A stretch of 64,000 bases of DNA from an uncultured Flavobacterium sp. (GTDB lineage: Bacteria; Bacteroidota; Bacteroidia; Flavobacteriales; Flavobacteriaceae), in the NCBI RefSeq assembly GCF_947632075.1, contig NZ_CANRNX010000004.1:1-64000 (forward strand). The letters are read 5' to 3'. The notes beneath the pieces were generated by a model that saw only the letters and a program-made list of their open reading frames with translations, was not told the origin of the DNA and searched no databases. Below are positions 8,908 to 55,631 of the stretch, piece after piece; position 1 is the stretch's first letter, and each line of letters starts with the position of its first letter. The position numbers and the translations under genes are program-made.

Positions 8908-11900
8908 TTATTTCTTAACAATTTTAATGAACTGTTCTTTAGTTTCTGATTTCAACTGAATCATATAAGTTCCAGATGATAGGTCAGATAAATCTAGTTC
9001 AACATTATTATCATTTACATTTAGAGTTTTAATTCGTTTACCTAATAAATCGAAAACCTCAATTTGAGTGAATTTCTCTGAGTAACTTAAGTTCAAAATG
9101 TCAACTACTGGGTTAGGGTAATATTTCAATTCTGATTTTACAAACTCATCATTAGATAAATAAATGTCAACTTTTACTTCTAACGGTAAACTTGGACAAC
9201 CATTCGTTCCAATCAACACACCGTAATATGTACTTCCGTTTACTAACGGCATGTTAGAAGATAAAGGATTGTTACCGTTTTGAGAATCATTGAATGTAGC
9301 ATACCAAACAACGTTTGATTGATTCGTTCTCAAATAAGAGATTGTCGTACCTTCAATAAACGTTTGAACTGCATCTCCAGTAGGAGAGTTTGGAATATCT
9401 CCAATTGTTACTTGTACAGCAGTTCTTTCTGAAATACAACCATAATGATTTCTCTCTACAAAGTAAACACCTGTTGTTAATGGTGTATTCTGAGCCAATG
9501 CATTTGTGCTTGTAGGAGAAGTATACCAACTATGTGTTACTCCAGTTGCTGCCGGAATAATTAAGTCTGATATTGTTCCTGATCCACAAATTACGAATGA
9601 TGAAACTTGTGGTGCAGTAATTGAAATTACTCGAACAGCTACTGCTCTTCTTTCAGAATAACATCCATTCATTGTTTGCGCCACATAATAAGTTCCTGAA
9701 GTTACAGGAGCGTTTGTAGCCAATGGAACATTAGATGTTGCTGAAGTATACCATACAAATTCAGCGCCTTGAACTCCTTCTGCTTCTAAATCTGAAACAG
9801 TTCCTGAGCCACAAATTGTTTGTGTGCCAGCAATTGGTTTGTTTAAAGCACCTGTAACAGTTAAAGTTATTGGCAATCTTGGAGATTCACAACCATTCAT
9901 TGTTTGTGAAATAAAGTATGTTCCAGATTCAGCTAAGCCATTTAATGGTAATAATGTAGTACCATTTGATGCATACCAATTAACTGTACTTCCAGCAGTT
10001 GCACCTATAGAAATATCTTCAAATCTGAAAGTTCCACAAAGCAATTGAGTAGTATTATTTAAGTTAGCTGGTATATCATTAACTGTTATTTGAACACGAA
10101 CTTTTTCTGACCAACAATGAGCATTACGCTGAGCAACAAAGTACGTACCTGATTGTACTAAATTAGTCATGCTTTGCGGTGTTGTACTATCTAAAGAAGT
10201 AAACCAACCTATAACTCCTGTTGTAGGTGTAACGTCTAAATCTGCAAAAGTTGTTCTGCCACAGTAAAATTGTGTTGTTTCCACTTGTGGTGCAATAAGT
10301 GTTTCTGCAACTTCAAATGAAACTTGAACTCTGTCAGATTCACAACCTCCAACAACTTGACTAACATAATAAATACCAGTTACTAATGGTGTTGTTAATT
10401 CAATCGTTGTAGTAGATGTAGCTGAAGTATAGAACTTAAGAGTTGCACCTGTTGCTTGTCCTAGATTAGCATCTGCTAATGTAAATACACCACAAAGTTG
10501 TTGTGTAGCATTGTTTAAAGCTAACGGTTTTTGATTCACAGTTACTTTTACCTCAGTTTTAGGTGACCAACAAGCTCCATTAAATTGAGCAACGTAATAA
10601 GTACCAGTAGTTACTTGTGCCGTTAAAGTTAAATCTGGTTCTGCTAATGTAGCAGAGCTAAACCATCCTTTAACTCCATTAGATGCTATATTAACTTCTA
10701 AATTATCAAATATTACAGCTTCACAATATAATATATTTGTTGGTGCTGTTGGAGCAGGTAATGTTGGGATTACTGCAATTTGAAGTAATACTCGTGCTGA
10801 CTCACAACTTCCTACCGATTGCGAGATATAGTAAGTTCTGTTAGAAATTATATCTGTTAACGGTAATTTGTTAGTGCTTGTTTCACTGTCATACCAATTG
10901 ATTATTCCACCAGGAACAACTGTTAAAGGTACGTCTGCTAAATTTAAAGCACCACAAAACGATTGAGATCCTCCTATTGGAGCTACAGGAATGATTCCTG
11001 ATTCTATTTCTACAGCCGTTTTTTCTGACCAACAGTTACCGTTAAATTGAGCTACATAATATGTACCTGTTACCAATTCATCAGTTAATTCTAATGGTGT
11101 TTCACCTGCTTCTGTTAAGAACCATCCAATTGTTCCTGTAACGCCTGTTGCTACTAAATCTGCAACTGTTGCTAAGTTAGTTACCTCACAGAATATTTGA
11201 TCTTCTGCTAAAGGAGCTGGTAATGTTGGATTATAAGTAATAACTACAGATACTAGATCTGATTTACATTCTCCTACAACTTGTTCAACATAATATGTAC
11301 CAGTTTCTGTAATAGAAGTGATTTCTTCTGTTGCATCTTCAGTTGCATACCATTTGAATACACCTCCTTGATCTTGTCCAGAAATTACGATGTTTGCAAT
11401 TTCAGGTTCACAAATGGTTTGATTTGCAATCACAGGTTCTGTTACATCAATAACTGTGATTGCTGTAGTTTGTGTAATAGAACAATTATCGTTAGATGTA
11501 ACTGCTGTATATGTTATAGCAGCTGTACCTTCTGCTGCTTTAAAGTATACTTTATCAGTAGGGGTTTCTGCTAAATAAGGTATTGTAGCAGCTGCATCTG
11601 TATATAAATTAGTTACTGGTGACCATACTGTTTCCGAATTTTTGTCTCCAATTATTCTTACGTTATCAATGAACCAACCTTCATATTGTGTACCACTATC
11701 TCCATCTAAAGTAAATCTTAATTTGAAATTACTTAAATTACTATTTGGAGGTAAAATAAAGGTTTCTTCTTTCCATAGATTATTAGTAGGAACACTTGAA
11801 CTTCCTCTTATAATATCTATCCATTCACTATATGAAGTTGTACTAAAAAATTTATAATTGCTGAAATCACTAGAACTACCACCTGTTGGATTTTCTGCTT

Positions 11901-14900
11901 GTCCTTCATATTCAGTTTTTAAGAAAGTATTCCATGTTATTCCGCCATCTAAGCTGTATTCAACTAATCCAAGATCCCATGGTGATAAATAACTTTCAAG
12001 GGCTGCAATGTTATCAAATTTTAATTTTAGGTTTGTATAACTTGATAAATTTAAAGCATCGTTCATTGTTAAATGACCAAGCGGATTTGCACCTGAATTT
12101 TTGAATTGTATTGAAGAACTACCTGTGGTATATAAATCACTGTTAACAGAAATTGACGTACCTGTACCACTATGTGTAAAGCCTAAATTGTTTGGGTCAT
12201 CAAAATTGAAAGAAAACAATGTAGCTCCTACAAGGTTGCTGCTTGCGTCTAAAGTTAATACTTCATTAACGCAAGTAATATATTCTTCTTCAATAATTTT
12301 ATAACTTGGGTTTTCATTAACAACTACATTTAAATTAACTGTAGTAACACAGTCACCATTAGCTGTTGAAACTCGTAAGGTGTAATTAGTACTTTCTGTA
12401 GGAGCAAATGTCCAACCAGTAGTTGCATTTCCTGTAATTCCTGTGTTAGGTGACCATACGTAATTTTCAATATTTGTATAGCTTGTAAGACCTTCAGTTA
12501 CTGTAACTAATTGTGATTGTCCTTCACATATTTCAATATTATCATGAGATAATTCTAAAGCAGGAGGTGCAGTAACAGTAGCAATAACTTCTGTACGCGG
12601 TGAAGAACAAATTCCAGTTCCGTTGAAATATGTGTTAGGTCTTGAAGAACTAGTTGATGTACCTCCATTTGTTGAACCGGTTGGACCTTCTGCTGGCGCA
12701 CCAGTTATTACCTCTAAGATTTGTTGAGGTGTTCTTCTATCTCCATTCGTATAGGTTGTACTAACCCAACTTGTAGTATGATATTCAACTGATGCTGATG
12801 TTCCTGATGACGCGTCTACTTTACTCCAAGAAATTTGAAGCACAATATTACTTTCCCCGTCCCATGTAAAAGTATCAGGAGTATTAAAATCGAAATTTTG
12901 AACACCAAGTTGTAAAGCTTGGTTTTCATTCGAATACACATGAGTTAATTGCTCTAAAGGTATATGAGAGGTTGTAGCAACGCTTTGAGTGGTATTGCCA
13001 ATGTAAATTGTAAAACCAGGTCTAGGTGCTGTTGCATTTGCAGTAATATTAAAGCCAATTGATGAAATTTCTCCTTGAGCTAAACCAAATGATAATAATT
13101 CTTCTGCAGTAAAAATGTATTGAAACTTGTATCCTCCCCATCCAAAAGTAAATGGCGATCCAGGTGCTGAAGATGTTGTAGTAGTTCCATTACCAACTTT
13201 AACTGTAGTATTTGGTACAGTCTGTTGTGTTTGTACCCAGAAAGAAGTAGTCTCGTTTAACTCATCAGTAGTGTAAGAGTTTGTAGATGCTAAAGGTGTA
13301 CCACCAGTTTCGCTAGCAAACCAAGATACCGAACCGTTGTTCGCTGCAATAGCAGATAATTCAACTGTTCCGACCCCACAACGAGTAGCTGGAGTACTTG
13401 AAACTAGATCTGGATAGTTACATAGCGTAGTAAAACTACCAATTTCTAACCAATCTGTTTGTTCGTCTGCACTACAAACCGATCTAACTTTTAAAATATA
13501 TCCTGTTGATGGTATTAAGTTAGTAAATTGTTTTGTAGTTTCTGTTGATAACATTGTTCCAGTAATGGCAACCTCTGATGTTGCAGCATTTATCAGTTGG
13601 TATTCGTATCCTTGAGCAGGAGCAATGATTGGAGTGCCAAAATTATAAACGGCACTGTTTTTGGTTACGTTAGTGATTTCATTGTTAATTGGTAAGAAAC
13701 AATCTGGACCTAAATTAACAGAGATATTTCCAACATATAAAGCACCCTGTGATGCTTGAGCATAACCATGGAAACCTATGTAGTAAGTTGCAGTTGCAGA
13801 AGGAATAAAGTCAACATAAACTGTTTGTTCAGCTAAATTGTTTTCAAAAACAACATCTGTAAGCAAAGTAGTCATTTCGGTACTAGTATTATCTGTACCA
13901 TACATAACCTTAAGTTTTTGATTTGCAGTAGTTGTTCCTTTTTTATAAGTAAACTTTAAACGATATACTTGGTTTTGTTCAAGTGTTAAACCTCTTGTGT
14001 AAAACCAATCATCAGATGCAATACTTGAGCTTGCTCCTAAATACATTGAACGTAAGCTTGCAACTGTTGTTGCTGAGTTCGCCCAATTCGTACCATCGTT
14101 ATTGTTGTTTTCAAGTACAACACATTCTGGTAGTCCAGAAGTAGGTACAGTTAAAGTATATGGTATAGATGAAGGATCACAATCTGTTTTAAATTTAATA
14201 GGTCTAGACCAATTGCTTGAATCTGTTGTTGAACAAACTGAACGTACATAGAATGTATATTCTATATTTGGATTTAAACCTGTAATATTTGCAAATAGCT
14301 GTCCTGCAGGTGCTGTACCTTCTAATACAAAACCTGTAGCTCCAGATTCTGGTAAGCCAGTAGTTCTTATTTCATAAGCATAACCATTTGCAGGAGTTAC
14401 TTCAGGTAGTTCCCACTCAATTCTTGCAGAGTTGTTTGTGATAGTAGGTATTCTAATAACTTCTACTTCTCTACAAGTTGGCGAAACCTTAACTTCTACT
14501 TCACCTAGGTATAAGTAGCTATAGTTTGATGCGCTAGCTCCTTCAAATCCAATATAATAAATACCCGTAGTGGTTGGAGTAAAATCTTTATATTTTACGT
14601 GTACATCTGCGGTATTTGTTCGTAAAGAATCTATTGCAGTGTTCATTGCACTAGCCTTCGTTTCTGTACCAAGTTTAATACGTAAAAACTGTGCTGTAGT
14701 ACTTGAAGCTTTTGCTTTATATTCTAAACGGTAACTTTGACCAGCTGTTAAGTTTAATCCACGAGAAAAAATCCAATTGCTTGGGCCATTTGAATTAGAA
14801 TAATATCTTAAAACTCTTCCTTCAATGCCGGCCTGAGTAGTTGTTGTGGTCCAAGTCGAAGTGTTAGATCTTTCATTAATAATACATTCAGGTAAATCGC

Positions 14901-17538
14901 TACCTGTTGTTTCATTAATAGGCATTATATAAGGTATTTCAGTTGGTGCGCACAATGTATTAAATTCTAAACCTTGAGACCAATAGCTTATTTCTCCAAC
15001 ACCACAGTCAGAAATTAAATAAACCTTATAAACAGTATTAGGACTTAAGCCTGTTATTGTAGTGGTAAATGTATTTGTTGGAATATTTCCAGATAATACA
15101 AGACCTTCACTACCAGAACCAGCTTCACCTGAGGTTCTAACCTCACATCTATATCCTAATGAAGGATTAGTAGTTGGTTGATCCCAAGCTATTGTTATTG
15201 AATTCGATGTTATATTAGTTTGTGTTAAACCTTCCGCGTCTGAGCAGGTAGGAATTCTCTCAACAATAACATTATCTAACCAATAATAATAATTTGCATC
15301 AGCACCAGATTGTTTAAAAACAATTCTTTTATTTGGCCCAGTAATTACCTCATTGTCTAATTCGATTATATAGTCATTGGTGCCCCAAGTGCTTGCTGTT
15401 GTCAGGTTTACGGTGCTAATTGGGTGGAAGTTACTTAAATCGCCTCCTTCAGCAACTACACCTACAGTAAAAGTTCCTGACCTTGTAGTATTTTCCATTC
15501 TTAATCTAAATCTTACACGCAAATCTTCTATATTATCTGTGAAAGCTGGTGTTGCTACATATAAAGGCGTTTCAGCTATAGGTGCAAACCTTAACGAGTT
15601 AGGAGAACTCACATATTGACTAGTTGTGATGCCAAAATTACTGTGCCCTACAGTGTGTGACCAACAATCTGGAAAAGATGTTGATGCATCAAAGTTCATA
15701 CTGTAAGGAGTTGGTATTGGATTACATGAAGTTTTAAAAGTAAAACCATCACTCCAAATTCCTAATTGATTTGTACCACAGCTAGATTGCATGTAAATTT
15801 TGTATTCTGTATTGGCAAGTAAACCATTTGCGGTTGCAGTGTAAGTACCAGTTGGTACGTTGCCACTTGCCGCAAGACCTGCAGCACCAGAGCCTGGTTC
15901 ACCTTCAGATCTTATTTCATATAAATATCCACCTGCTGGTGCCGTAGTAGGTTCAGTCCAAGCAAAATTTATACTGTTCGAGGTAGGGTTACTTGTTTGT
16001 ATGCCAAGTACATCTATACATAAAGGAATAGTTTCTACAACAAAGTCATCGATATAAAAATATGAAGTTGTAGATGTATTCTCTATTTGTCTTAACGCAA
16101 TATAATTATTTCCACCACTAACTAATGTTGTTGAATTAAATTGGTAAGATATTGGGTTAAAACTAGTATTGGTAGGGTCAATTGTAGTTAACGGAATAAA
16201 TGTCGCTACATCTGTAGGGTCTGTTAAAATTCCTAACTCTAGTTTACCAGCACTAGCAGCAGATCTTTTATAATTAAACTTTACACGTAACGTTTCAATG
16301 TTCTGTGAAAATTGTGGAGAAATTGCGTAACTAGATTCAGCAAGAGCTGATCGTATCCTTAATGACTTTGTTCCACTAGTAGCATTTGTAGCTGAATTTT
16401 GAATTGAAACATAGTCTGGAACAGCCTCATATCTAAACCAACAATATGGGAAAGTGATAGTTTCTGTGTAATCAAAATTTTCTGTATATGGTAAGTCAGT
16501 TACAGGAACACATAAGGTTCTAAAAGTACTATAAATCCAATTACCTAAAGTTCCATCTCCACAATTGGTTTTTAAAAAAACATGGTATAGAGTGTTTGGT
16601 AATAAATTTGTAATGTTTGCTGATAACGTTGAACCTGAGATTGTATTTGAAGCTATAGCTCCAGGAGTTCCTAAGTTCGTATCTAATCTTACTTCATAAG
16701 CGTATCCAATTGCTGCCTCAGAACTTGATGCTTGCCAAGTTAAAGTTGCAGAATTCGATGTTGTAGTATTTTCAAAATTAGTTGGTATATAACAAGTTGA
16801 TGGAGTGAATACATAAGTTAAACCATCAGAAAAACCTGTTTCTCCGTTGAAAATACATAGCGAAGTTGAAGCCACGTTTGATGACGATGTAATTGCATTT
16901 GACCAAGAGTTATTAGTTCCTAAAATTAGATACTGATAATCAGACGGACTATTTTTTATACCAATTTGTGGCTGAAAACTTGTACTAATTGCAAAAGGAG
17001 GTGTGCCTTTATAGATAAATTTAATTACACCTGTTGAGTGATTTAATCTTATCTGAAAACTAAAAGACTCTGTTAGTCCATATCGTCTAAAATTATTCCA
17101 TTCTACTACTGTTTCATTTTCAATAGTTTGATGTTTAATATTTGATACACCTATAGCACCTACATTTAAATCTGCTCCAAATGGTGCTAAAACCTTATTG
17201 TCAGCAAAAGTCGAACTTATTGCTTGGTAAGTTGACGTAGGTACTGAACCAGTTTCTCCAAATACTAAATGACCATTTGAAGTGACTCTTATTTCTGTAT
17301 AAATAACTCCAGCGAATGTAAAGGCTGGAATTGTTACAGGTTTTGAAGCCTTTGAGTCATGAGATGGTGAGGCATCTACTGAAGAAATTGGATCATTATT
17401 AGTGGCAATAAAAACTGTACCTCCAGTTAAAGGGGTGTAAGTGTTAGTCTCTTTTGTGAAAACATACGAGCTTGATTGAGCGTACATTCTCAGCATTGAG
17501 AGTAACAACACGAGAAATACTAAGTAAATTTTCCTCAT
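8908..17538 (-). CDS. Giant secreted surface protein/adhesin (2876 aa): FN3 and MAM-like (jelly-roll) modules, tandem Ig-like array, T9SS type A C-terminal sorting domain
   Basis: Signal peptide MRKIYLVFLVLLLSMLRMYAQ; five FN3-like units; Cys-containing Ig-like units ending (G/R)TYYVAQ..GC.S; C-terminus LKYYPNPVVDILNLSYSEKFTQIEVFDLLGKRIKTL...LSSGTYMIQLKSETKEQFIKIVKK. Confidence 0.9.
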   Translation of the reverse strand: MRKIYLVFLVLLLSMLRMYAQSSSYVFTKETNTYTPLTGGTVFIATNNDPISSVDASPSHDSKASKPVTIPAFTFAGVIYTEIRVTSNGHLVFGETGSVPTSTYQAISSTFADNKVLAPFGADLNVGAIGVSNIKHQTIENETVVEWNNFRRYGLTESFSFQIRLNHSTGVIKFIYKGTPPFAISTSFQPQIGIKNSPSDYQYLILGTNNSWSNAITSSSNVASTSLCIFNGETGFSDGLTYVFTPSTCYIPTNFENTTTSNSATLTWQASSSEAAIGYAYEVRLDTNLGTPGAIASNTISGSTLSANITNLLPNTLYHVFLKTNCGDGTLGNWIYSTFRTLCVPVTDLPYTENFDYTETITFPYCWFRYEAVPDYVSIQNSATNATSGTKSLRIRSALAESSYAISPQFSQNIETLRVKFNYKRSAASAGKLELGILTDPTDVATFIPLTTIDPTNTSFNPISYQFNSTTLVSGGNNYIALRQIENTSTTSYFYIDDFVVETIPLCIDVLGIQTSNPTSNSINFAWTEPTTAPAGGYLYEIRSEGEPGSGAAGLAASGNVPTGTYTATANGLLANTEYKIYMQSSCGTNQLGIWSDGFTFKTSCNPIPTPYSMNFDASTSFPDCWSHTVGHSNFGITTSQYVSSPNSLRFAPIAETPLYVATPAFTDNIEDLRVRFRLRMENTTRSGTFTVGVVAEGGDLSNFHPISTVNLTTASTWGTNDYIIELDNEVITGPNKRIVFKQSGADANYYYWLDNVIVERIPTCSDAEGLTQTNITSNSITIAWDQPTTNPSLGYRCEVRTSGEAGSGSEGLVLSGNIPTNTFTTTITGLSPNTVYKVYLISDCGVGEISYWSQGLEFNTLCAPTEIPYIMPINETTGSDLPECIINERSNTSTWTTTTTQAGIEGRVLRYYSNSNGPSNWIFSRGLNLTAGQSYRLEYKAKASSTTAQFLRIKLGTETKASAMNTAIDSLRTNTADVHVKYKDFTPTTTGIYYIGFEGASASNYSYLYLGEVEVKVSPTCREVEVIRIPTITNNSARIEWELPEVTPANGYAYEIRTTGLPESGATGFVLEGTAPAGQLFANITGLNPNIEYTFYVRSVCSTTDSSNWSRPIKFKTDCDPSSIPYTLTVPTSGLPECVVLENNNNDGTNWANSATTVASLRSMYLGASSSIASDDWFYTRGLTLEQNQVYRLKFTYKKGTTTANQKLKVMYGTDNTSTEMTTLLTDVVFENNLAEQTVYVDFIPSATATYYIGFHGYAQASQGALYVGNISVNLGPDCFLPINNEITNVTKNSAVYNFGTPIIAPAQGYEYQLINAATSEVAITGTMLSTETTKQFTNLIPSTGYILKVRSVCSADEQTDWLEIGSFTTLCNYPDLVSSTPATRCGVGTVELSAIAANNGSVSWFASETGGTPLASTNSYTTDELNETTSFWVQTQQTVPNTTVKVGNGTTTTSSAPGSPFTFGWGGYKFQYIFTAEELLSFGLAQGEISSIGFNITANATAPRPGFTIYIGNTTQSVATTSHIPLEQLTHVYSNENQALQLGVQNFDFNTPDTFTWDGESNIVLQISWSKVDASSGTSASVEYHTTSWVSTTYTNGDRRTPQQILEVITGAPAEGPTGSTNGGTSTSSSRPNTYFNGTGICSSPRTEVIATVTAPPALELSHDNIEICEGQSQLVTVTEGLTSYTNIENYVWSPNTGITGNATTGWTFAPTESTNYTLRVSTANGDCVTTVNLNVVVNENPSYKIIEEEYITCVNEVLTLDASSNLVGATLFSFNFDDPNNLGFTHSGTGTSISVNSDLYTTGSSSIQFKNSGANPLGHLTMNDALNLSSYTNLKLKFDNIAALESYLSPWDLGLVEYSLDGGITWNTFLKTEYEGQAENPTGGSSSDFSNYKFFSTTSYSEWIDIIRGSSSVPTNNLWKEETFILPPNSNLSNFKLRFTLDGDSGTQYEGWFIDNVRIIGDKNSETVWSPVTNLYTDAAATIPYLAETPTDKVYFKAAEGTAAITYTAVTSNDNCSITQTTAITVIDVTEPVIANQTICEPEIANIVISGQDQGGVFKWYATEDATEEITSITETGTYYVEQVVGECKSDLVSVVITYNPTLPAPLAEDQIFCEVTNLATVADLVATGVTGTIGWFLTEAGETPLELTDELVTGTYYVAQFNGNCWSEKTAVEIESGIIPVAPIGGSQSFCGALNLADVPLTVVPGGIINWYDSETSTNKLPLTDIISNRTYYISQSVGSCESARVLLQIAVIPTLPAPTAPTNILYCEAVIFDNLEVNIASNGVKGWFSSATLAEPDLTLTAQVTTGTYYVAQFNGACWSPKTEVKVTVNQKPLALNNATQQLCGVFTLADANLGQATGATLKFYTSATSTTTIELTTPLVTGIYYVSQVVGGCESDRVQVSFEVAETLIAPQVETTQFYCGRTTFADLDVTPTTGVIGWFTSLDSTTPQSMTNLVQSGTYFVAQRNAHCWSEKVRVQITVNDIPANLNNTTQLLCGTFRFEDISIGATAGSTVNWYASNGTTLLPLNGLAESGTYFISQTMNGCESPRLPITLTVTGALNKPIAGTQTICGSGTVSDLEAEGVQGAEFVWYTSATSNVPLATNAPVTSGTYYVAQTMNGCYSERRAVAVRVISITAPQVSSFVICGSGTISDLIIPAATGVTHSWYTSPTSTNALAQNTPLTTGVYFVERNHYGCISERTAVQVTIGDIPNSPTGDAVQTFIEGTTISYLRTNQSNVVWYATFNDSQNGNNPLSSNMPLVNGSTYYGVLIGTNGCPSLPLEVKVDIYLSNDEFVKSELKYYPNPVVDILNLSYSEKFTQIEVFDLLGKRIKTLNVNDNNVELDLSDLSSGTYMIQLKSETKEQFIKIVKK
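9170..11440 (-). repeat. Tandem array of about 10 Ig-like modules encoded in the giant adhesin gene
   Basis: Units start at VIANQTICEP, LAEDQIFCEV, IGGSQSFCGA, APTNILYCEA, NATQQLCGV, VETTQFYCGR, NNTTQLLCGT, IAGTQTICGS, VSSFVICGS and a degenerate last unit, GDAVQTFIEG. Confidence 0.85.
13420..16800 (-). repeat. Five FN3-like domains interleaved with MAM/jelly-roll-like modules
   Basis: Recurring pattern SNSxxxxWxxPxxxPxxGYxYEIR..G.PGSG..GL..SGN.PT......GL.PNT.YK.Y..S.CG....WS. Confidence 0.8.
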
Positions 17539-26163: not shown

Positions 26164-29100
26164 TTAATAATTAGCATTTGATTTTAATACAGGATTAACA
26201 ACTGATTCTTCACAATTTACAATATTAACCCTTAGATATTGAGGTTCACCATATAAACAGCCTTGACGCTTTGTTGTAATTTTAATTAACATTTTATTAT
26301 CAAAAGCCTCACCTACAAAAAGCTTTGTAAGATTTAAATCAAAAGCCTCAATATTAGCTTGTGTATTACTAGGAATTAACGCAAGATTACTATTTGCAAT
26401 ATCTTCAATTGCTTTAATCATTTTAATAGGTTTTCCATTGTAATCTAACATAGGTGAGCCATCAGCATTTTGATAAGTACCTCCATATTCAGTAACTCTT
26501 GCAAACGAAACTTGGTAAGATGTACAAGCATCTGGCTTTTGTATTAACAAAGACTCTGTTGCGCAAAGTTTAGTTACCTCTTTAGGATCTGTCATCCCTA
26601 CAAACGATTTTAATGGATTGATTCTAATGTCGTGTACGTGTAAACCGTCACCTAAATTCACCGAAACCGTATTGAACTGCTGCAACTCAACAGCATCAAA
26701 CATAAAATTAACTGGTCTTGATAAAACAGCTCTTCTCTTGTTATTGAATCTAAACAATCCTAAATCTAAAACTCTAAACTTCTCTAATTTTTCCTCTCCT
26801 ACTTTAGCACCGTTTAAGTAATAAACAATCTTAAAGTTACCCAACTGCAACAAACTCAAGTTTAATACATTGATATTAGGATACGCCAAAGTAATTTGCA
26901 CTTGATCTCCTGGACGAGCTCTTTGTTTTAATTTCGCTTGTAAAAATTGTTTATTTAAAACCCCTGCAGTGGCATTAAATAAAGTATAACTATCGTAGTC
27001 GTTATCTACTGAGTAATATGGAAAAACTACCGAAGATAAAGAAGAAGCTACGTTTAAAACTTCTGAATAATTACCCCATATTGCATCTTCTACAAAAGGA
27101 TTTAACTTAATATTTTCGTTTTCGATTAAAGGGTCTGAGTCTTGTTTTACATACGAGCCGTCAACATCTCGTTGATTAGTTGGATACTGTAACGAAGAAG
27201 GAGGAGATACTTTTATTTGGTTTTCAATCAATGCACAATAATCAGTTTGGTTGATATTATTTGTATTTGAAGTACTTACTCCATCAGCTACGATTTCTCC
27301 TTCTTCTGCAATGTACGCATAGAATACAGAACCTAAATCAGCAACTCCAATCAAAGAACCTAGTTGAATACGAACACCATTAAAATCAACTAAACTTCCA
27401 TTCGTATTTGCCGGAGTAAAGCTAAATTCAAAAACATTATCCCCTTTTAATGCATCTAAAACACCACCTTTAACTCCAAATGTTTTACCAACATTTTTAT
27501 TTACTCTACCAATAGGAATACCACTTGTAAGACCAATATCGCCTGGAGTTGGTGCATTTGTGAAACGTCCAATAACAGTTAAACCACCTGCTACTTTTAA
27601 GCCTGAATATTGTTCACCTAACTTCAAAACAATTTTCTTACCTCTTAATTCGGCACCTGAGTAAAGTGAACCATTTGGTTTTGTAAAATACAAATCAATA
27701 CCTACGGTACCGATTCCTAATAAAACAACACCACCAGTTAAAGTTGCTGCATTTGCTCTATTAAGTGTACTTGGATCATTTGGATTAGAAGGGACTGCTT
27801 GATTTGGATTTGTTACTCCACTTAATCCAGACGACCAAGGAATAGCTTTGGTCGCAAAATTACGCTTGGTATAAAAAACACAATCTGCAGGGTCGTATAC
27901 TAAAACTTTAATTACACTAGAAGTTACACAACCAAGAGCTGGTGCAATTTGCAATGTATTATTTCCGCCTGTGTTTACCGTTGTAACTTCTACAATAAAT
28001 TCATGAAACCCTTCAGGCAAGTTCATAGCTACAGTTGGATCTAAAATTTCACTACTGTTTCCACTTAAAGGATCAACACTATAATACTTAACTGCTGATT
28101 TATAAGTTGTATTAACTATTGGCAAGGTAAAAGGATCACCTAAAGGCAACGAAAAGCTGTTTGTGTCGTTATCAAAAATAATCTCATTTTTAATTACATT
28201 CACCTCAAGCGAAGGTGTCCAAGAAAATAATTCAGTTTGCCCAGCATTGTAAACATACCTCCTAATTAAAAAATCTGAAGTTATATTGCGTAATTCAATT
28301 GTATTTGTATTCTGAAATACAGCGTCACTCATCGGATTCGAGTTAGAACTTAAATTAGGGTCCAATGCTAAATCGTATACTCCAGTAGCTATTCGACTTC
28401 CGTTTTTAAGAGTTTCCCAAGTAAGGCCTCCATCATTGCTTATTTGATATTTATAATCAATATTCGCCAAAGTAACGGTAGAAGAAGCGGCTTCAAAATT
28501 TCTTACAAAAACAATTCCTTCATTACACGTGTAGGTCTGCGTTGTTTGTTGTTCATCAACAAAGGTTATTTTCCCTGGATTTGGTGAATTCCGTTGGCTA
28601 ACAGTGGAGGTGTTATTGATACTATTTTGATCTGCCGCATAATTTAAAGTAAAATTATGTGTATAAACCTGACCTCCTGAAGTACTTAATCCGTTTTTAG
28701 AAAATCTAAATTCACGGTATTCACCTGGAGCCAAACTAATGCCATTATTCAACACAAACTCTCTTTTAACAATAAGTTCTAAAGGTGGATTATCTACTGT
28801 AAAATCACCACTTACAACATTATTTAAATTTTCACTCCCATCAATTGAAACTTTTACTTTAATATTATTACCTGTAGATGTTAATGTGTGCGTACCTACA
28901 TTGGTTACCCTTACAGTAATCATATTATTATTTGCAATAGAGTATGGATTTTCTATTTGTGAGGTAACCGCTAAATCCGATTGAAAAAGCTGTAAATTTA
29001 AATCAGCACTAGCTGTATTATTTGCAAATACATTTTCAGATCCATTTAAAGCAGTAGCTTTTGAAACAGTTTTTAAAGGACTTGTTAAAACAGCATTTAA

Positions 29101-29850
29101 TTTAATTTTAATAGTAATCGTCACTGATTTTGTTCCTGGAATCGTAAATGAACCATTTAATTCATTATTCTGATTAACTGTTAATAAAGTACTTGGCATT
29201 GGAGTAGCTCCTTCGGCTAATGCCCATGAAACAAAAGAAGCTTGAGTAGCTGTTTGAGTAATTTCATTTACCTTAAGAATTTCCTCAAAATCTGTTGAAA
29301 CAGGAGCAATTGCTTTATTTTCAATTGTTACAACATACGTATATTCTTCTCCATTTTTTAAAGTACTTGTTGAATCATCTGTTTTGGTTACAATTAAAAC
29401 ATCTGTTTCATTCTGGTATGTTAATGAATTAATTTTACAAATACCACCTACACAAACTGTATATTGCAATGGCATATCTGGCTTTTCAGTAGCAGTTGTT
29501 GAAATAACCCCAGTAGCAGTATCTAAAGAAAAACCTGAAGGCCATGTTCCGAAAATTTCAATAGTTGCGTTTCCGTTTGCACCTAGTATTATGGCATGTT
29601 CTACTCCTTGATCATCGATGTATTTATCGTTTGCTATTACATTAACAGAAGTATAATTACCTAAGCCCCAAATTACATTATCAAAGTTTAACATTAATTC
29701 TGGGTCTTGAACAAAAAAGTTTGTTTCTGTAACCTTTTTAACTTTTGAAAAAAGATTCAGATCATCTGTTTTGGTTATGTATGCATATAGTTGCACCTGC
29801 AATAAAGCAAATACAACAAACACCATATATTTAAATATATTTTTTTTCAT
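26164..29850 (-). CDS. Large exported surface protein with DUF11/CARDB-like repeats and no recognisable T9SS C-terminal domain
   Basis: 1228 aa; signal peptide MKKNIFKYMVFVVFALLQVQLYAY; VTKTDDSTSTLKNGEEYTYVVTIENKAIAPVS-type DUF11 segment; C-terminus ...NIVNCEESVVNPVLKSNANY. Confidence 0.75.
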   Translation of the reverse strand: MKKNIFKYMVFVVFALLQVQLYAYITKTDDLNLFSKVKKVTETNFFVQDPELMLNFDNVIWGLGNYTSVNVIANDKYIDDQGVEHAIILGANGNATIEIFGTWPSGFSLDTATGVISTTATEKPDMPLQYTVCVGGICKINSLTYQNETDVLIVTKTDDSTSTLKNGEEYTYVVTIENKAIAPVSTDFEEILKVNEITQTATQASFVSWALAEGATPMPSTLLTVNQNNELNGSFTIPGTKSVTITIKIKLNAVLTSPLKTVSKATALNGSENVFANNTASADLNLQLFQSDLAVTSQIENPYSIANNNMITVRVTNVGTHTLTSTGNNIKVKVSIDGSENLNNVVSGDFTVDNPPLELIVKREFVLNNGISLAPGEYREFRFSKNGLSTSGGQVYTHNFTLNYAADQNSINNTSTVSQRNSPNPGKITFVDEQQTTQTYTCNEGIVFVRNFEAASSTVTLANIDYKYQISNDGGLTWETLKNGSRIATGVYDLALDPNLSSNSNPMSDAVFQNTNTIELRNITSDFLIRRYVYNAGQTELFSWTPSLEVNVIKNEIIFDNDTNSFSLPLGDPFTLPIVNTTYKSAVKYYSVDPLSGNSSEILDPTVAMNLPEGFHEFIVEVTTVNTGGNNTLQIAPALGCVTSSVIKVLVYDPADCVFYTKRNFATKAIPWSSGLSGVTNPNQAVPSNPNDPSTLNRANAATLTGGVVLLGIGTVGIDLYFTKPNGSLYSGAELRGKKIVLKLGEQYSGLKVAGGLTVIGRFTNAPTPGDIGLTSGIPIGRVNKNVGKTFGVKGGVLDALKGDNVFEFSFTPANTNGSLVDFNGVRIQLGSLIGVADLGSVFYAYIAEEGEIVADGVSTSNTNNINQTDYCALIENQIKVSPPSSLQYPTNQRDVDGSYVKQDSDPLIENENIKLNPFVEDAIWGNYSEVLNVASSLSSVVFPYYSVDNDYDSYTLFNATAGVLNKQFLQAKLKQRARPGDQVQITLAYPNINVLNLSLLQLGNFKIVYYLNGAKVGEEKLEKFRVLDLGLFRFNNKRRAVLSRPVNFMFDAVELQQFNTVSVNLGDGLHVHDIRINPLKSFVGMTDPKEVTKLCATESLLIQKPDACTSYQVSFARVTEYGGTYQNADGSPMLDYNGKPIKMIKAIEDIANSNLALIPSNTQANIEAFDLNLTKLFVGEAFDNKMLIKITTKRQGCLYGEPQYLRVNIVNCEESVVNPVLKSNANY

Positions 29851-50792: not shown

Positions 50793-50826
50793 AAAAAAGC
50801 CAATCCTGCGGGATTGGCTTTTTTGT
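50793..50826. terminator. Bidirectional terminator
   Basis: aaaaaagccaatcc tgc gggattggctttttt. Confidence 0.9.
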
Positions 50827-50829
50827 ATT

Positions 50830-51312
50830 TTAATTGTTTAAATCTTCGGCTGCTTTTAAAACAGCTTCTTTTAAACCTAATTTATATTGAATCATTTTTT
50901 CTAATAACTCTGCATTTTGACTTGCAAGAATTTGACTTGCTAATAAACCTGCGTTTTTAGCTCCGTTTAAAGCTACGGTTGCAACTGGAACTCCACCTGG
51001 CATTTGTAAGATTGATAAAACAGAATCCCATCCATCTATTGAATTTGATGATTTTACAGGAACTCCAATTACAGGAAGCGGACTCATAGAAGCTACCATT
51101 CCTGGTAAATGTGCTGCACCACCAGCGCCAGCGATAATCACGTTGATTCCGTTTTTATGTGCGTTGTTAGAAAAATCTACTAATTTTTCTGGAGTTCTGT
51201 GAGCTGAAACAATATCAACATGTGTTTCAATTCCAAATTCTTTTAATACGTCGATGGCTTGTTGCATTACTGGCATATCAGAAATGCTTCCCATTACTAC
51301 TGCTACTTTCAT
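50830..51312 (-). CDS. purE: 5-(carboxyamino)imidazole ribonucleotide mutase
   Basis: MKVAVVMGSISDMPVMQQAIDVLKEFGIETHVDIVSAHRTPEKL...AGAGGAAHLPGMVASMSPLPVIGVPV. Confidence 0.97.
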   Translation of the reverse strand: MKVAVVMGSISDMPVMQQAIDVLKEFGIETHVDIVSAHRTPEKLVDFSNNAHKNGINVIIAGAGGAAHLPGMVASMSPLPVIGVPVKSSNSIDGWDSVLSILQMPGGVPVATVALNGAKNAGLLASQILASQNAELLEKMIQYKLGLKEAVLKAAEDLNN

Positions 51313-51332
51313 TTATTGTTGTGTTGTTTATT

Positions 51333-51911
51333 TTATATTTGTTCTGGAATCATATTCCAAATGTCAATCTTAAACTCTTCTTGAATGGCTCTCAGATATT
51401 TTATAGAATCTATTTCTAAATCAATTTTTTCTTGAAAATAATCTTCCGCAGAAATGCCTCTTTCGTTAATTCGGTCTTTTCTTCTTTCTATATATTTCTT
51501 TCTGTTTTTTACAAAAATTTCGTCGTTAAGGTTTAATAAGGTTATTAAATTTTTTGTTTTAACGTCATCAGGTTCGTGTAAAAAATATCCGTCAAAATAA
51601 ATTAGCTTGTTCTCAAAGTTTACGTCGTAAGGATTCAAAATCGGCTCAATCCAGTTTGTTCTTTTTAGATTATTTGGTTTATGTTTGACCATATACCAAT
51701 TATAATATGAGTCAGTATCTGAATATTTTAAATTAGGGTTAAAGTGTTCGATATCGACTGCATCATTATCTCCAATATATTCTTCAGTATAGGCACAAAA
51801 GTTTTTTTGTTCTTTAAGAAGAATACTTTTTAGTTTTTGATTTCCTGATTTTTTATATTTAAGTCCGTTTTTGATGATTTCAGAATCAGGTTTTTTAATA
51901 ATTCGCTTCAT
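51333..51911 (-). CDS. HNH endonuclease of PtuB/TIGR02646-like type (putative anti-phage effector)
   Basis: NFCAYTEEYIGDNDAVDIEHFNPNLKYSDTDSYYNWYMVKHKPNNLKRTNW...KTKNLITLLNLNDEIFVKNRKKYIERR; 3-bp gap to the upstream ATPase gene. Confidence 0.75.
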   Translation of the reverse strand: MKRIIKKPDSEIIKNGLKYKKSGNQKLKSILLKEQKNFCAYTEEYIGDNDAVDIEHFNPNLKYSDTDSYYNWYMVKHKPNNLKRTNWIEPILNPYDVNFENKLIYFDGYFLHEPDDVKTKNLITLLNLNDEIFVKNRKKYIERRKDRINERGISAEDYFQEKIDLEIDSIKYLRAIQEEFKIDIWNMIPEQI

Positions 51912-51914
51912 AAT

Positions 51915-53204
51915 CTAGAAGTTATATTCTTCACCTAATTTTTCTAATTTTTCTGAAATTTTTGCTTTTTTAATTTCATCCTTTTCAAAATATATTTGTT
52001 GTTTTAACTCAATATATTCTTCATATTTCTTTTGACCATATTTATTTATATAATTGATGTTAAAATCATTATTCAAAATATCATTTGGGTCATCTCCAAT
52101 TGGAGAACTTCCTCTACGGACTTTTACATTTCCTTCTTCATCAAAATAAAGGATAAAACGTTCGTCTGGTTCAAAAGCAGCTGCGATAAATGGAGAATGC
52201 GTTGCAATAATAAATTGTGAATTTGGCGCAATCTTTCTATAATTATCCATTAAGTCAATTTGTATATCTGGATATAACGAGCGTTCAGGTTCATCAATTA
52301 TAACAATAGATTCTCTTTCTTTTAATTTATAAAGTGGTAAAAAGGATAATAATAAACCCTTCGTTCCAGTACTTGTGTTCTGGAATGCAATGACCTCGTC
52401 GTTATTTTTTCTTTTGATTGGAATTGAATATTCTGCATTTATAGTATCTACTTCTAAATGAAGTTTTTCTAATAGCGGATTTAATTTATCTGCTAATAAT
52501 TTTAATTCATTAGGATTTTCGCTTTGCCATTTTTCAAATTCTTTTTGTAATTTTTTTGTATCTGCTAAAAGTCCTTTATAAATTAATTCAGTCATTTTTT
52601 GATTGAATTTTTTTCTATAATTGAGTATTTCTGATAACAGATAGAGCCAAACCTCAACTTCAACTTTGTTATCAAAAGTCATATGAGATGTTGTTTTGTA
52701 GTAATTTAATATTTTTTGTTTTTCTTTGATTTCATCATTGGTTAAATTATCTGATATCTCAAGAGGGCTTAAAGAATAAAAATTGATATTATGGTCAGAT
52801 ATAATATTCGATTTAATATAAATAACTTCTTTTTTATCTTTAAAATTAATCAAAGAAGTAACAAGACCTCCATTCGAATTATTAGTGAAGGTTTGATTTC
52901 TATAGTTAATTGTATTATTTATGTAAGATAATTTTTCATTTTTGATATCTAGTGTGAAATTAACTTTGGTTATATTTTGTGAATTAAAAGAAATGTACTT
53001 GTTTTCTATAATTTCAACTTCTAAAGCATATTTCAAGCAATTTGAAATCAATTCAAGAAGATTCGTTTTACCAGTAGCACTTTGTCCAATAAAACAAATT
53101 TTTTCAAGAGGTTGTCCTTTCTTTTCACCTGATTGGTAGGTGAAGTCAAACTCTAAATTTTCTAAATGTTTATATTTTTCAATATGTAAATTCGTAATTT
53201 TCAT
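51915..53204 (-). CDS. AAA family ATPase (ABC/SMC-type, AAA_21-like; PtuA-like)
   Basis: Walker A CFIGQSATGKTNLLELI; signature-like NTSTGTKGLLLSFLPLY; Walker B SIVIIDEPERSLYPDIQ; H-loop QFIIATHSPFIAAAF; no TOPRIM domain in the remaining sequence. Confidence 0.85.
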   Translation of the reverse strand: MKITNLHIEKYKHLENLEFDFTYQSGEKKGQPLEKICFIGQSATGKTNLLELISNCLKYALEVEIIENKYISFNSQNITKVNFTLDIKNEKLSYINNTINYRNQTFTNNSNGGLVTSLINFKDKKEVIYIKSNIISDHNINFYSLSPLEISDNLTNDEIKEKQKILNYYKTTSHMTFDNKVEVEVWLYLLSEILNYRKKFNQKMTELIYKGLLADTKKLQKEFEKWQSENPNELKLLADKLNPLLEKLHLEVDTINAEYSIPIKRKNNDEVIAFQNTSTGTKGLLLSFLPLYKLKERESIVIIDEPERSLYPDIQIDLMDNYRKIAPNSQFIIATHSPFIAAAFEPDERFILYFDEEGNVKVRRGSSPIGDDPNDILNNDFNINYINKYGQKKYEEYIELKQQIYFEKDEIKKAKISEKLEKLGEEYNF

Positions 53205-53270
53205 AAGGCTACTTTTATTAATGATAAATATAATTAATTTAACTCAATACTAAATTCTGATATCTAATTT

Positions 53271-54425
53271 CTATCTAGAAATTACTCGAATCGTTTCTTT
53301 AACTTGTTGTGCAACTTTACGAGCTTCAGTCATATTTTCGTTTACAATAGTTACGTGCCCCATTTTACGGAACGGACGAGTTTCGCGTTTTCCGTAAATG
53401 TGCGGAGTTACTCCATCAATCGCCATGATTTTTTCGATGTTTTCATAAACTACTTGTCCAGAAAAACCTTCTTCACCAACTAAGTTTACCATAATTCCGG
53501 CAGCTTTACTATCGGTATTTCCTAAAGGTAAATCTAAAATAGCACGAATGTGTTGTTCAAATTGCGAAGTATAACTAGCCTCTATAGAATAATGTCCTGA
53601 ATTATGTGGGCGAGGAGCAACCTCATTTACTAAAATTTGGTCGTCTTGTGTTTGAAACATTTCAACAGCTAATAAACCAACATGATTATAAGCTTCTGAA
53701 ACTTTTAATGCAATTTCACGCGCGTTATTTGCAACCGTTTCGTCAATACGAGCTGGGCAAATTACATATTCTACTTGATTTGCTTCTGGATGGAATTCCA
53801 TTTCAACTACCGGATACGTTTTAATTTCTCCTGAAGCTGAACGCGCAACAATAACTGCTAATTCGTTTTTAAACGGAATCATCGTTTCTGCAATACATTC
53901 CGTTTCTGGAAGCGTATCTAAATCTTCAATTTTACGAACTACTTTTACTCCGTTTCCGTCGTAACCACCTTCGGTAGCTTTCCATACAAAAGGAATTTCA
54001 ATGTTTCCGTTCGCAACTTCAGCTTTTAAAGCAGTTAAAGTTAAAAAACGTTCATAAGGTGCTGTTGGAATATTATGTTGTGTATAAAAATCTTTTTGGT
54101 TGCCTTTGTTCGAGATTAAACGTAGCGTTTTAGGAGAAGGATAAACTTTTTTGCCTTCAGCTTCTAAAGTTTCTAAAGCTTCAAGATTAACGTTTTCAAT
54201 TTCAATGGTTAAAACGTCAACTTGGTTTCCTAAATCAATAACGGTTTGGTAATCGTTTAATGAACCCTGAAAGAATTTTGTAGCACCAAATTGGCAAGGA
54301 GCCTCAGAACTTGGATCAACTACATAAGTTTGAATATCGAATTTTCTGGTTTCAGTCAACATCATTTTACCTAATTGGCCACCACCTAAAATTCCTAATT
54401 TAAAATCTGAAGAAAAATAACTCAT
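53271..54425 (-). CDS. purK: 5-(carboxyamino)imidazole ribonucleotide synthase
   Basis: LGILGGGQLGKMMLTETRKFDIQTYVVDPSSEAPC; ATP-grasp VEMFQTQDDQILVNEVAPRPHNSGHYSIEA. Confidence 0.97.
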   Translation of the reverse strand: MSYFSSDFKLGILGGGQLGKMMLTETRKFDIQTYVVDPSSEAPCQFGATKFFQGSLNDYQTVIDLGNQVDVLTIEIENVNLEALETLEAEGKKVYPSPKTLRLISNKGNQKDFYTQHNIPTAPYERFLTLTALKAEVANGNIEIPFVWKATEGGYDGNGVKVVRKIEDLDTLPETECIAETMIPFKNELAVIVARSASGEIKTYPVVEMEFHPEANQVEYVICPARIDETVANNAREIALKVSEAYNHVGLLAVEMFQTQDDQILVNEVAPRPHNSGHYSIEASYTSQFEQHIRAILDLPLGNTDSKAAGIMVNLVGEEGFSGQVVYENIEKIMAIDGVTPHIYGKRETRPFRKMGHVTIVNENMTEARKVAQQVKETIRVISR

Positions 54426-54573: not shown

Positions 54574-55002
54574 TTAAGTTTTTTTATATTCCATAACTGT
54601 TTCTAGCTCGCCTGTATTTTCTTCAATTTGTTCGTTTTTGATTAGAAAGTCTTGACTTATATAAAAAGCAATTGACTTTTTGTTTTTTGAATATACGTTT
54701 AAGATGAGTTCTGGATATAATTCTTTAGCATGTTGTAATAATTTTTTTCCAAAACCTTTTCCTTGGCTTATGGGATGAACAAAAATAGCGGCAATGTAAT
54801 TTTCTACTAAAGATATAAAGCCTACGACAAAGTTGTTTTCTTCGATTACATACGAGTTACTTTGAGGCAAGTAAATATCACGCATATCGTTTATCTTTTC
54901 TAACCAATAGCTTTGGGGTATAAAATCGTGTGAAATTACAGATGCATTTAACCAAATTTCTAAAACGCTATCAGTATCTTTTTTTTCAAATGGTCTAATC
55001 AT
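54574..55002 (-). CDS. GNAT-family N-acetyltransferase
   Basis: MIRPFEKKDTDSVLEIWLNASVISHDFI; AAIFVHPISQGKGFGKKLLQHAKELYPELILNVYSKNKKSIAFY. Confidence 0.9.
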   Translation of the reverse strand: MIRPFEKKDTDSVLEIWLNASVISHDFIPQSYWLEKINDMRDIYLPQSNSYVIEENNFVVGFISLVENYIAAIFVHPISQGKGFGKKLLQHAKELYPELILNVYSKNKKSIAFYISQDFLIKNEQIEENTGELETVMEYKKT

Positions 55003-55043: not shown

Positions 55044-55631
55044 TTATGGTTTTTGGTGTTTTTCTTCCTTAGAAATTTTAGAAAGAATTTTTTTTGCTCT
55101 ACTTACAAATGAAGGTTCTTTTGATTGTACTTGCCGATCAATTATTGCTAGTAATTCAGATGTAATCCATTCGGCTTCGTTTCTTAGTTCAAATAAAACA
55201 CTTAAACAATTCACTCGAGTTGCTACAAATGAATTTGATATTAACCAATCAAAATGTGTATTTACCAGAGTGTCTTTTTGATTTTTTGTAAATTGTGATG
55301 GATTTTTCATTAAGATATGATAGAAAATTCTGCTACTTGTACGTTTGCAAGTTTCATTTGTAAACTTCTTTTGCAACTCAATGAAACGACTTAAACAGTT
55401 GTTTAAATAATCAGTATGCTCATCAATAATGAGATCTAAAACACAACAAAATAAAATTTGTGTTCTTTCATCAGAATTTTCAATATGGTCTAAAATTTTT
55501 TCGGCAGAAATATTAGAGTCTAAGATTATATTCTTAGCTAATTTTCTACTATTTATACTCATATCAATTTTTAAATTTGATAAAATTTCCGAATCTGTCA
55601 TGTAAATCTTTTTTTCGATAATTTTAAACAA
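55044..55631 (-). CDS. Hypothetical HEAT-like alpha-helical repeat protein
   Basis: 195 aa, predominantly helical pattern with repeated short helices. Confidence 0.45.
   Translation of the reverse strand: MFKIIEKKIYMTDSEILSNLKIDMSINSRKLAKNIILDSNISAEKILDHIENSDERTQILFCCVLDLIIDEHTDYLNNCLSRFIELQKKFTNETCKRTSSRIFYHILMKNPSQFTKNQKDTLVNTHFDWLISNSFVATRVNCLSVLFELRNEAEWITSELLAIIDRQVQSKEPSFVSRAKKILSKISKEEKHQKP

Follow-up and report, generated by a model that had tools for sequence, protein, structure and literature searches.

The closest described relatives of the locus analysed here are the type I Septu systems, represented by Escherichia coli Septu (PDB 8EEA) and Septu EcB88, and the PtuAB effectors of type I-A retrons (Ec78/Eco7 and Ec83/Eco4). 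Septu defence requires both the Walker residues and the HNH residues (PMC13096335; PMC11555353). Cleavage of tRNA-Tyr is reported for EcB88 and Eco7 (PMC13096335; PMC11555353), and Eco4 PtuAB does not lower tRNA (PMC11555353). A 6:2 PtuA:PtuB complex is described for E. coli Septu, and a review lists the Septu trigger as unclear. Two further systems are instructive by their organization: the cDHS1/2 loci of Pseudomonas aeruginosa, where immune genes are exchanged between fixed core-gene borders and tens of different systems occupy many kb (PMC10250203), and HsdS of type I restriction-modification, where variable segments between conserved ones are re-paired by recombination.

The window, a stretch of 64,000 nucleotides from a draft genome of an uncultured Flavobacterium sp., carries a PtuAB pair between the purine biosynthesis genes purK and purE. 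The locus includes the following features, with the subdivision into conserved anchors and variable cassettes discussed below.

53271..54425, minus strand: purK, 5-(carboxyamino)imidazole ribonucleotide synthase, the upstream border (TIGR01161 and NF004679 above cut-off)
53205..53270, minus strand: purK-ptuA spacer of 66 bp, with no exact match to TAnnTTTG in the window
51915..53204, minus strand: ptuA, 429-aa ABC/SMC-type ATPase of the Septu PtuA1 family (PDLC00274, AAA_15/AAA_21, fold matches)
53055..53204, minus strand: Anchor 1, PtuA residues 1-50 including Walker A; conserved, with weak tracking of PurK
52305..53054, minus strand: Cassette V1, PtuA residues 51-300, a hypervariable insertion and proposed sensor (distance scan and DNA mosaics)
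52095..52304, minus strand: Anchor 2, PtuA residues 301-370 (Walker B, H-loop, SPIGDDPND); conserved, correlated with neither V1 nor V2
51387..52094, minus strand: Cassette V2, PtuA C-terminal helices 371-429 with PtuB residues 1-175 (HNH); co-inherited
51333..51911, minus strand: ptuB, 192-aa HNH nuclease (PDLC00347, invariant H56/N71/N80, AF2 model and Foldseek)
51333..51386, minus strand: Anchor 3, PtuB residues 176-192 and stop, uncoupled from the remaining PtuB
50830..51312, minus strand: purE, 5-(carboxyamino)imidazole ribonucleotide mutase, the downstream border (TIGR01162 above cut-off)
50793..50824, strand not given: terminator-like stem-loop 3' of purE

The first-pass annotation of this DNA had placed a 429-aa ATPase and a 192-aa HNH protein, 3 bp apart, between purK and purE on one strand, and these coordinates proved exact. 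The open reading frame list gives the minus-strand order purK-ptuA-ptuB-purE with spacers of 66, 3 and 20 bp, and both border genes are confirmed by Pfam and NCBIfam. The gap holds PtuAB only, its neighbours are pur genes, and no integrase or transposase marks a mobile island. The pair is present in a single copy in the window's own genome. Elsewhere in the window, the sole Rfam match is a Flavo-1 RNA (RF01705; 37466-37549, minus strand). The window also encodes a secreted protein of 2876 aa that combines Ig-like and fibronectin III domains with a Por secretion tail domain (8908-17538, minus strand) and a 1228-aa ORF with no Pfam match at E 0.01 (26164-29850, minus strand).

The reading of the pair as a compact Septu-like system was borne out. 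The PADLOC profiles PDLC00274 (PtuA1; 518 bits) and PDLC00347 (PtuB1; 257 bits) match the two proteins end to end. Pfam finds AAA_15 and AAA_21 on PtuA and only a sub-threshold HNH_4 on PtuB. PtuA contains Walker A (GQSATGKT), Walker B (IVIIDEPE) and an H-loop (ATHSP), and residues K46, D304/E305 and H336 are invariant among five aligned PtuA proteins. In PtuB, the catalytic H and N are present, H56, N71 and N80 are invariant across 30 relatives, and the H/N spacing is comparable with H75/N91 of EcB88 (PMC13096335). The adjacent ptuA-ptuB order is kept in the relatives. A sequence search of PtuB against solved structures gave no meaningful match, but the fold search did find PtuB: with the AF2 model (pLDDT 92), the best Foldseek relatives in PDB are PtuB of retron Ec83, E. 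coli Septu and retron Eco7 (9e90_B, 8eea_G, 9vh1_F), followed by Cas9 HNH domains. An AlphaFold model of a fused PtuA-PtuB, with the in-frame TAG read through, has a good PtuA half that matches retron I-A and Septu PtuA in PDB; residues 430-520 are mostly below pLDDT 50 and the PtuB half is too poor to show an interface. As judged from full-length profile matches, modelled folds and conserved motifs, the window pair is a Septu (PtuAB) system. It shares with type I Septu the two-gene ATPase and HNH organization, the fold and the Walker and HNH residues, and differs in being tied to one chromosomal site; structural alignments with characterised PtuAB give a sequence identity of only about 13-18%. 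The effector fold is also that of retron type I-A PtuAB, but the window pair lacks an adjoining reverse transcriptase or msr-msd, and its PtuA has 429 aa against about 550.

The subfamily is accessory, yet tied to one site across Flavobacteriaceae. When 300 genomes of the genus were searched with the PtuA profile, strong matches (E <1e-130) were found in 20 (~7%, the window's genome included), with one further remote match (1e-52). All but one of these 20 are flanked by purK and purE. In the exception (genome G132, locus L178, 8121-10024), the pair lies on its neighbours' strand between two other genes, which we take from the sequence to be ribB-like and peptidase-T-like. In a named collection, 31/31 full-length Flavobacteriaceae loci, from Flavobacterium, Tenacibaculum, Paenimyroides tangerinum and one uncultured member, read purK-ptuA-ptuB-purE; in more distant relatives (Chitinophagaceae, Saprospiraceae and others) the pair is located elsewhere. 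Among 400 genomes of the family, only the window's and one other carry the subfamily, the other also at purK-purE. A different PtuA family, PDLC00271, served as a control: it gave 16 matches in 15 of 150 genomes of the genus, and neither purK nor purE occurs in the ~1.5 kb flanks retrieved around any of them. Searches of phage, plasmid and viral collections gave no near-full-length relatives, only short weak matches or none. The first-pass annotation had described the pair as inserted inside the purK-purE locus and suggested comparing this interval in related genomes. The comparison showed that the pair is accessory and not fixed in the genus; the location stands, whereas the notion of a casual insertion does not, since 19/20 genus loci and 31/31 family loci are found there. 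The site resembles cDHS1/2 in that immune genes are exchanged between fixed borders, but here one subfamily of ~2 kb recurs and no mobile-element genes were seen.

The strongest alternative sees in the purK-purE gap a generic hotspot for insertions, where PtuAB is one cargo among many that are interchangeable. The gap usually measures 6-400 bp in a sample of 81 genomes, and the variety of its content agrees with such a hotspot: 52 gaps are short, 18 hold another small gene, six hold PtuAB and five hold genes of toxin-antitoxin type (ParE or PemK/MazF). On the purK+purE tree of these 81 genomes, the six PtuAB genomes need six changes, with gain and loss indistinguishable. The nearest kin of the window in this sample (PurK ~90%) have antitoxin/ParE-type genes in the gap. 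In P. tangerinum (L112, PurK 98%) PtuAB adjoins an orphan antitoxin-like gene, and in genome G056 a short leftover similar to the tail of an antitoxin. These arrangements suggest turnover at the site; for the hotspot, it counts that loci L112 and L086 retain such antitoxin-like remnants next to PtuAB. What a generic hotspot leaves unexplained is the near-absence of the subfamily elsewhere in the family and the avoidance of the site by the other Septu family. We consider this alternative a serious one and lean modestly against it; the statements of a generic hotspot and of a dedicated site are compatible and can hold together.

Several other gene families were observed around the site. Toxin-antitoxin type genes, either PemK/MazF-like or ParE-like, the latter with an uncharacterised small partner, occupy the gap in L079, L097, L032, L034 and L033. 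A family of probable membrane proteins of ~70 aa, with a stretch resembling DKNEY.GERI.SF, recurs in the gap of many Flavobacterium species (L056, L069, L104, L092, L081, L067, L065, L047, L082 and L064). Upstream of purK, the window encodes a GNAT acetyltransferase (54574-55002, minus strand) that is missing there in P. tangerinum (L112), and thus the other side of purK varies too. A 195-aa protein encoded at 55044-55631 (minus strand) matches nothing in Pfam or PADLOC; a similar 182-aa ORF is located upstream of purK in L112.

The history of the pair was analysed by pairwise protein distances in 34 PtuAB pairs at purK-purE, with V1 scored as PtuA residues 60-240. Sampling was one genome per species, and the swapping is seen between species and near-species. 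In these 34 loci the distances of PurK and PurE are strongly correlated (rho 0.83). PurK is correlated neither with V1 (rho -0.09) nor with PtuB (rho -0.08), and V1 and PtuB are only weakly related to each other (rho 0.19). The last 60 residues of PtuA follow PtuB (rho 0.79, Mantel p 0.001), in contrast to the conserved core (0.13); after thinning to 13 well-separated representatives these values are 0.92 and 0.12. The coupling to the PtuA C-tail extends along PtuB residues 1-175 (rho 0.72-0.80). In sliding windows, PtuA residues 1-50 go weakly with PurK, 51-300 with V1 and 371-429 with PtuB, residues 301-370 follow neither cassette, and PtuB residues 176-192 are uncoupled from the remaining PtuB. 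The DNA identity of Anchor 1 is 78-85% over PtuA residues 1-40. The trees of PurK+PurE, of V1 with the core and of V2 each reject the other trees in AU tests (p <=0.0013).

The same boundaries are seen in DNA comparisons of close pairs. The window and P. tangerinum are 98% identical in PurK and 97% in V1, and 60% in PtuB. At the DNA level this pair shows 85-96% identity in purK and 87-100% over the initial 1.1 kb of ptuA. Identity then drops to 52-81% over the remainder of ptuA and the greater part of ptuB, and recovers to 87-99% from there into purE; the break lies at ~52100, and ~95% is reached again by 51301-51400. DNA profiles show such V2 block differences in window/L112, L141/L173 and L142/L173. 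V1 block differences are found in L131/L141, L147/L140 and L168/L136, and also between two genomes of Tenacibaculum finnmarkense (L125/L127). In L131/L141, DNA identity is 92-97% at the start of ptuA, 32-65% inside V1 and 81-97% after V1. Each of the four multi-member V1 groups is combined with two or more types of V2, and the reverse holds for the five multi-member V2 types, every one of which is seen with at least two V1 groups. V1 and V2 have therefore been exchanged independently between species, and the locus is a mosaic. Saturation was considered as a cause of this pattern and rejected, as the core windows, although well conserved, show no correlation with PtuB, and the DNA identity of close relatives shifts in blocks. 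Several records are from isolates, so a binning error in the window's fragmented draft cannot explain the mosaic. The variable segments between conserved ones, exchanged independently, are reminiscent of HsdS. The proteins are unrelated to HsdS, however, and the cassettes of the window are a proposed sensor and a nuclease module; a search for silent donor cassettes of PtuA or PtuB found none in the window's genome (~90% complete), in contrast to HsdS.

An ordinary Septu acquired once in an ancestor and mostly lost since then, with a fast-evolving part of PtuA and no recombination, is improbable. It agrees with the weak tracking of PurK by the anchor segments (rho 0.60 for PtuA residues 1-20 and 0.33 for PtuB residues 176-192), and with the lack of an integrase, phage or plasmid carrier among those sought. 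The frameshift of ptuB in two relatives with an intact ptuA (L163/L066 in genome G042, and L135 in F. covae) also fits it; frameshifts in ptuB only would be expected were the nuclease the costly one of the two proteins, with sequencing error as an alternative. Such a history does not account for the incongruent trees of the AU tests or for the block changes in DNA, where L131/L141 have 91-97% identity on both sides against 32-65% in V1 and the window differs from L112 by the V2 block. A recombining mosaic Septu could also have resided here ancestrally and been lost later; only the absence of recombination conflicts with it.

A housekeeping role tied to purine metabolism might fix the position, as the constant location, the shared strand and the tight spacing to purE would suggest, but ~93% of the genus genomes lack the pair, ptuB has decayed in two relatives, and the top HMM and fold matches are defence systems; we regard this explanation as very improbable. 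That the pair is a retron type I-A effector with a reverse transcriptase and RNA nearby is hardly credible and was rejected for the window: PtuAB pairs do serve as such effectors and weak NCBIfam similarity to the Ec78 PtuA and PtuB equivalogs exists (57 of 500 and 40 of 150 bits, far under cut-off), but only 66 bp separate purK from ptuA and 20 bp ptuB from purE, the neighbouring ORFs are pur genes, and neither a reverse transcriptase ORF among the window ORFs nor a retron RNA in the Rfam scan of the window was seen beside the pair.

A lower GC content of the ATPase gene had been taken in the first-pass annotation as a hint of horizontal origin. The difference is real (ptuA 25.6% and ptuB 27.3% versus purK 35.7% and purE 36.0%), but the hint fails at third codon positions, where GC is about the same (17.9/23.8% in ptuA/ptuB versus 20.5/18.6% in purK/purE). 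The difference thus reflects amino-acid make-up and does not point to foreign origin, and GC was rejected as a sign of the latter; horizontal exchange is indicated by the mosaic structure.

The suggestion that the pair may share a transcript with the purine genes needs refinement. TAnnTTTG is the -7 box of Bacteroidota. It occurs within 70 bp of ptuA in 28/34 loci, nearly always 22 nt before the start, compared with a mean of 2.3 and a maximum of 7 loci in shuffled sequences; the pair is thus normally more than a passenger on the pur transcript. The exact box before ptuA is absent in the window, P. tangerinum and Tenacibaculum, and a sigma-70 promoter scan performed no better than shuffles. 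The search for terminators in the window gave none in the ptuB-purE interval, and hence read-through into purE is likely on sequence grounds.

Taken together, we consider it likely that the locus is a stand-alone Septu at a dedicated purK-purE site, a mosaic whose two cassettes are exchanged independently, so that recombination re-pairs sensors and effectors. By analogy with known Septu, an oligomeric PtuA ATPase would sense infection and control the PtuB HNH nuclease; PtuB would then cut nucleic acid, which in characterised relatives is tRNA-Tyr or DNA, and phage growth would stop. V1 may recognise the trigger, as suggested by its variability and its insertion between Walker A and Walker B. 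V2 may be a matched nuclease module, with the C-tail of PtuA docking PtuB and the HNH domain cutting, to judge from their co-inheritance; this co-inheritance could be plain physical linkage rather than a protein interface. The cassettes are probably swapped by homologous recombination within the anchors and within purK and purE, which could thereby bring together new pairs of sensor and effector.

Septu membership of such pairs is already known. A position-locked Septu locus with two independently exchanged cassettes appears to be undescribed in the literature searched, which contained nothing relevant on a purK-purE hotspot or a recombining Septu and whose coverage did not extend to the main Septu structure papers. 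Naturally occurring recombinants with one cassette in common and the other different, at the same site in a near-identical background, offer ready-made tests of which part of PtuA senses: the window and P. tangerinum have a common V1 and different nuclease modules, and the T. finnmarkense genomes have a common nuclease module and different V1. The purK-purE gap is also a simple search handle, as flavobacterial gaps above ~200 bp may hold small immune or toxin-antitoxin genes. More broadly, and with a little less than even confidence, we propose that the site is a diversity-generating innate immune locus of these bacteria, a reserved position where the V1 sensor and the V2 nuclease are re-paired and detection and cutting may be changed independently.
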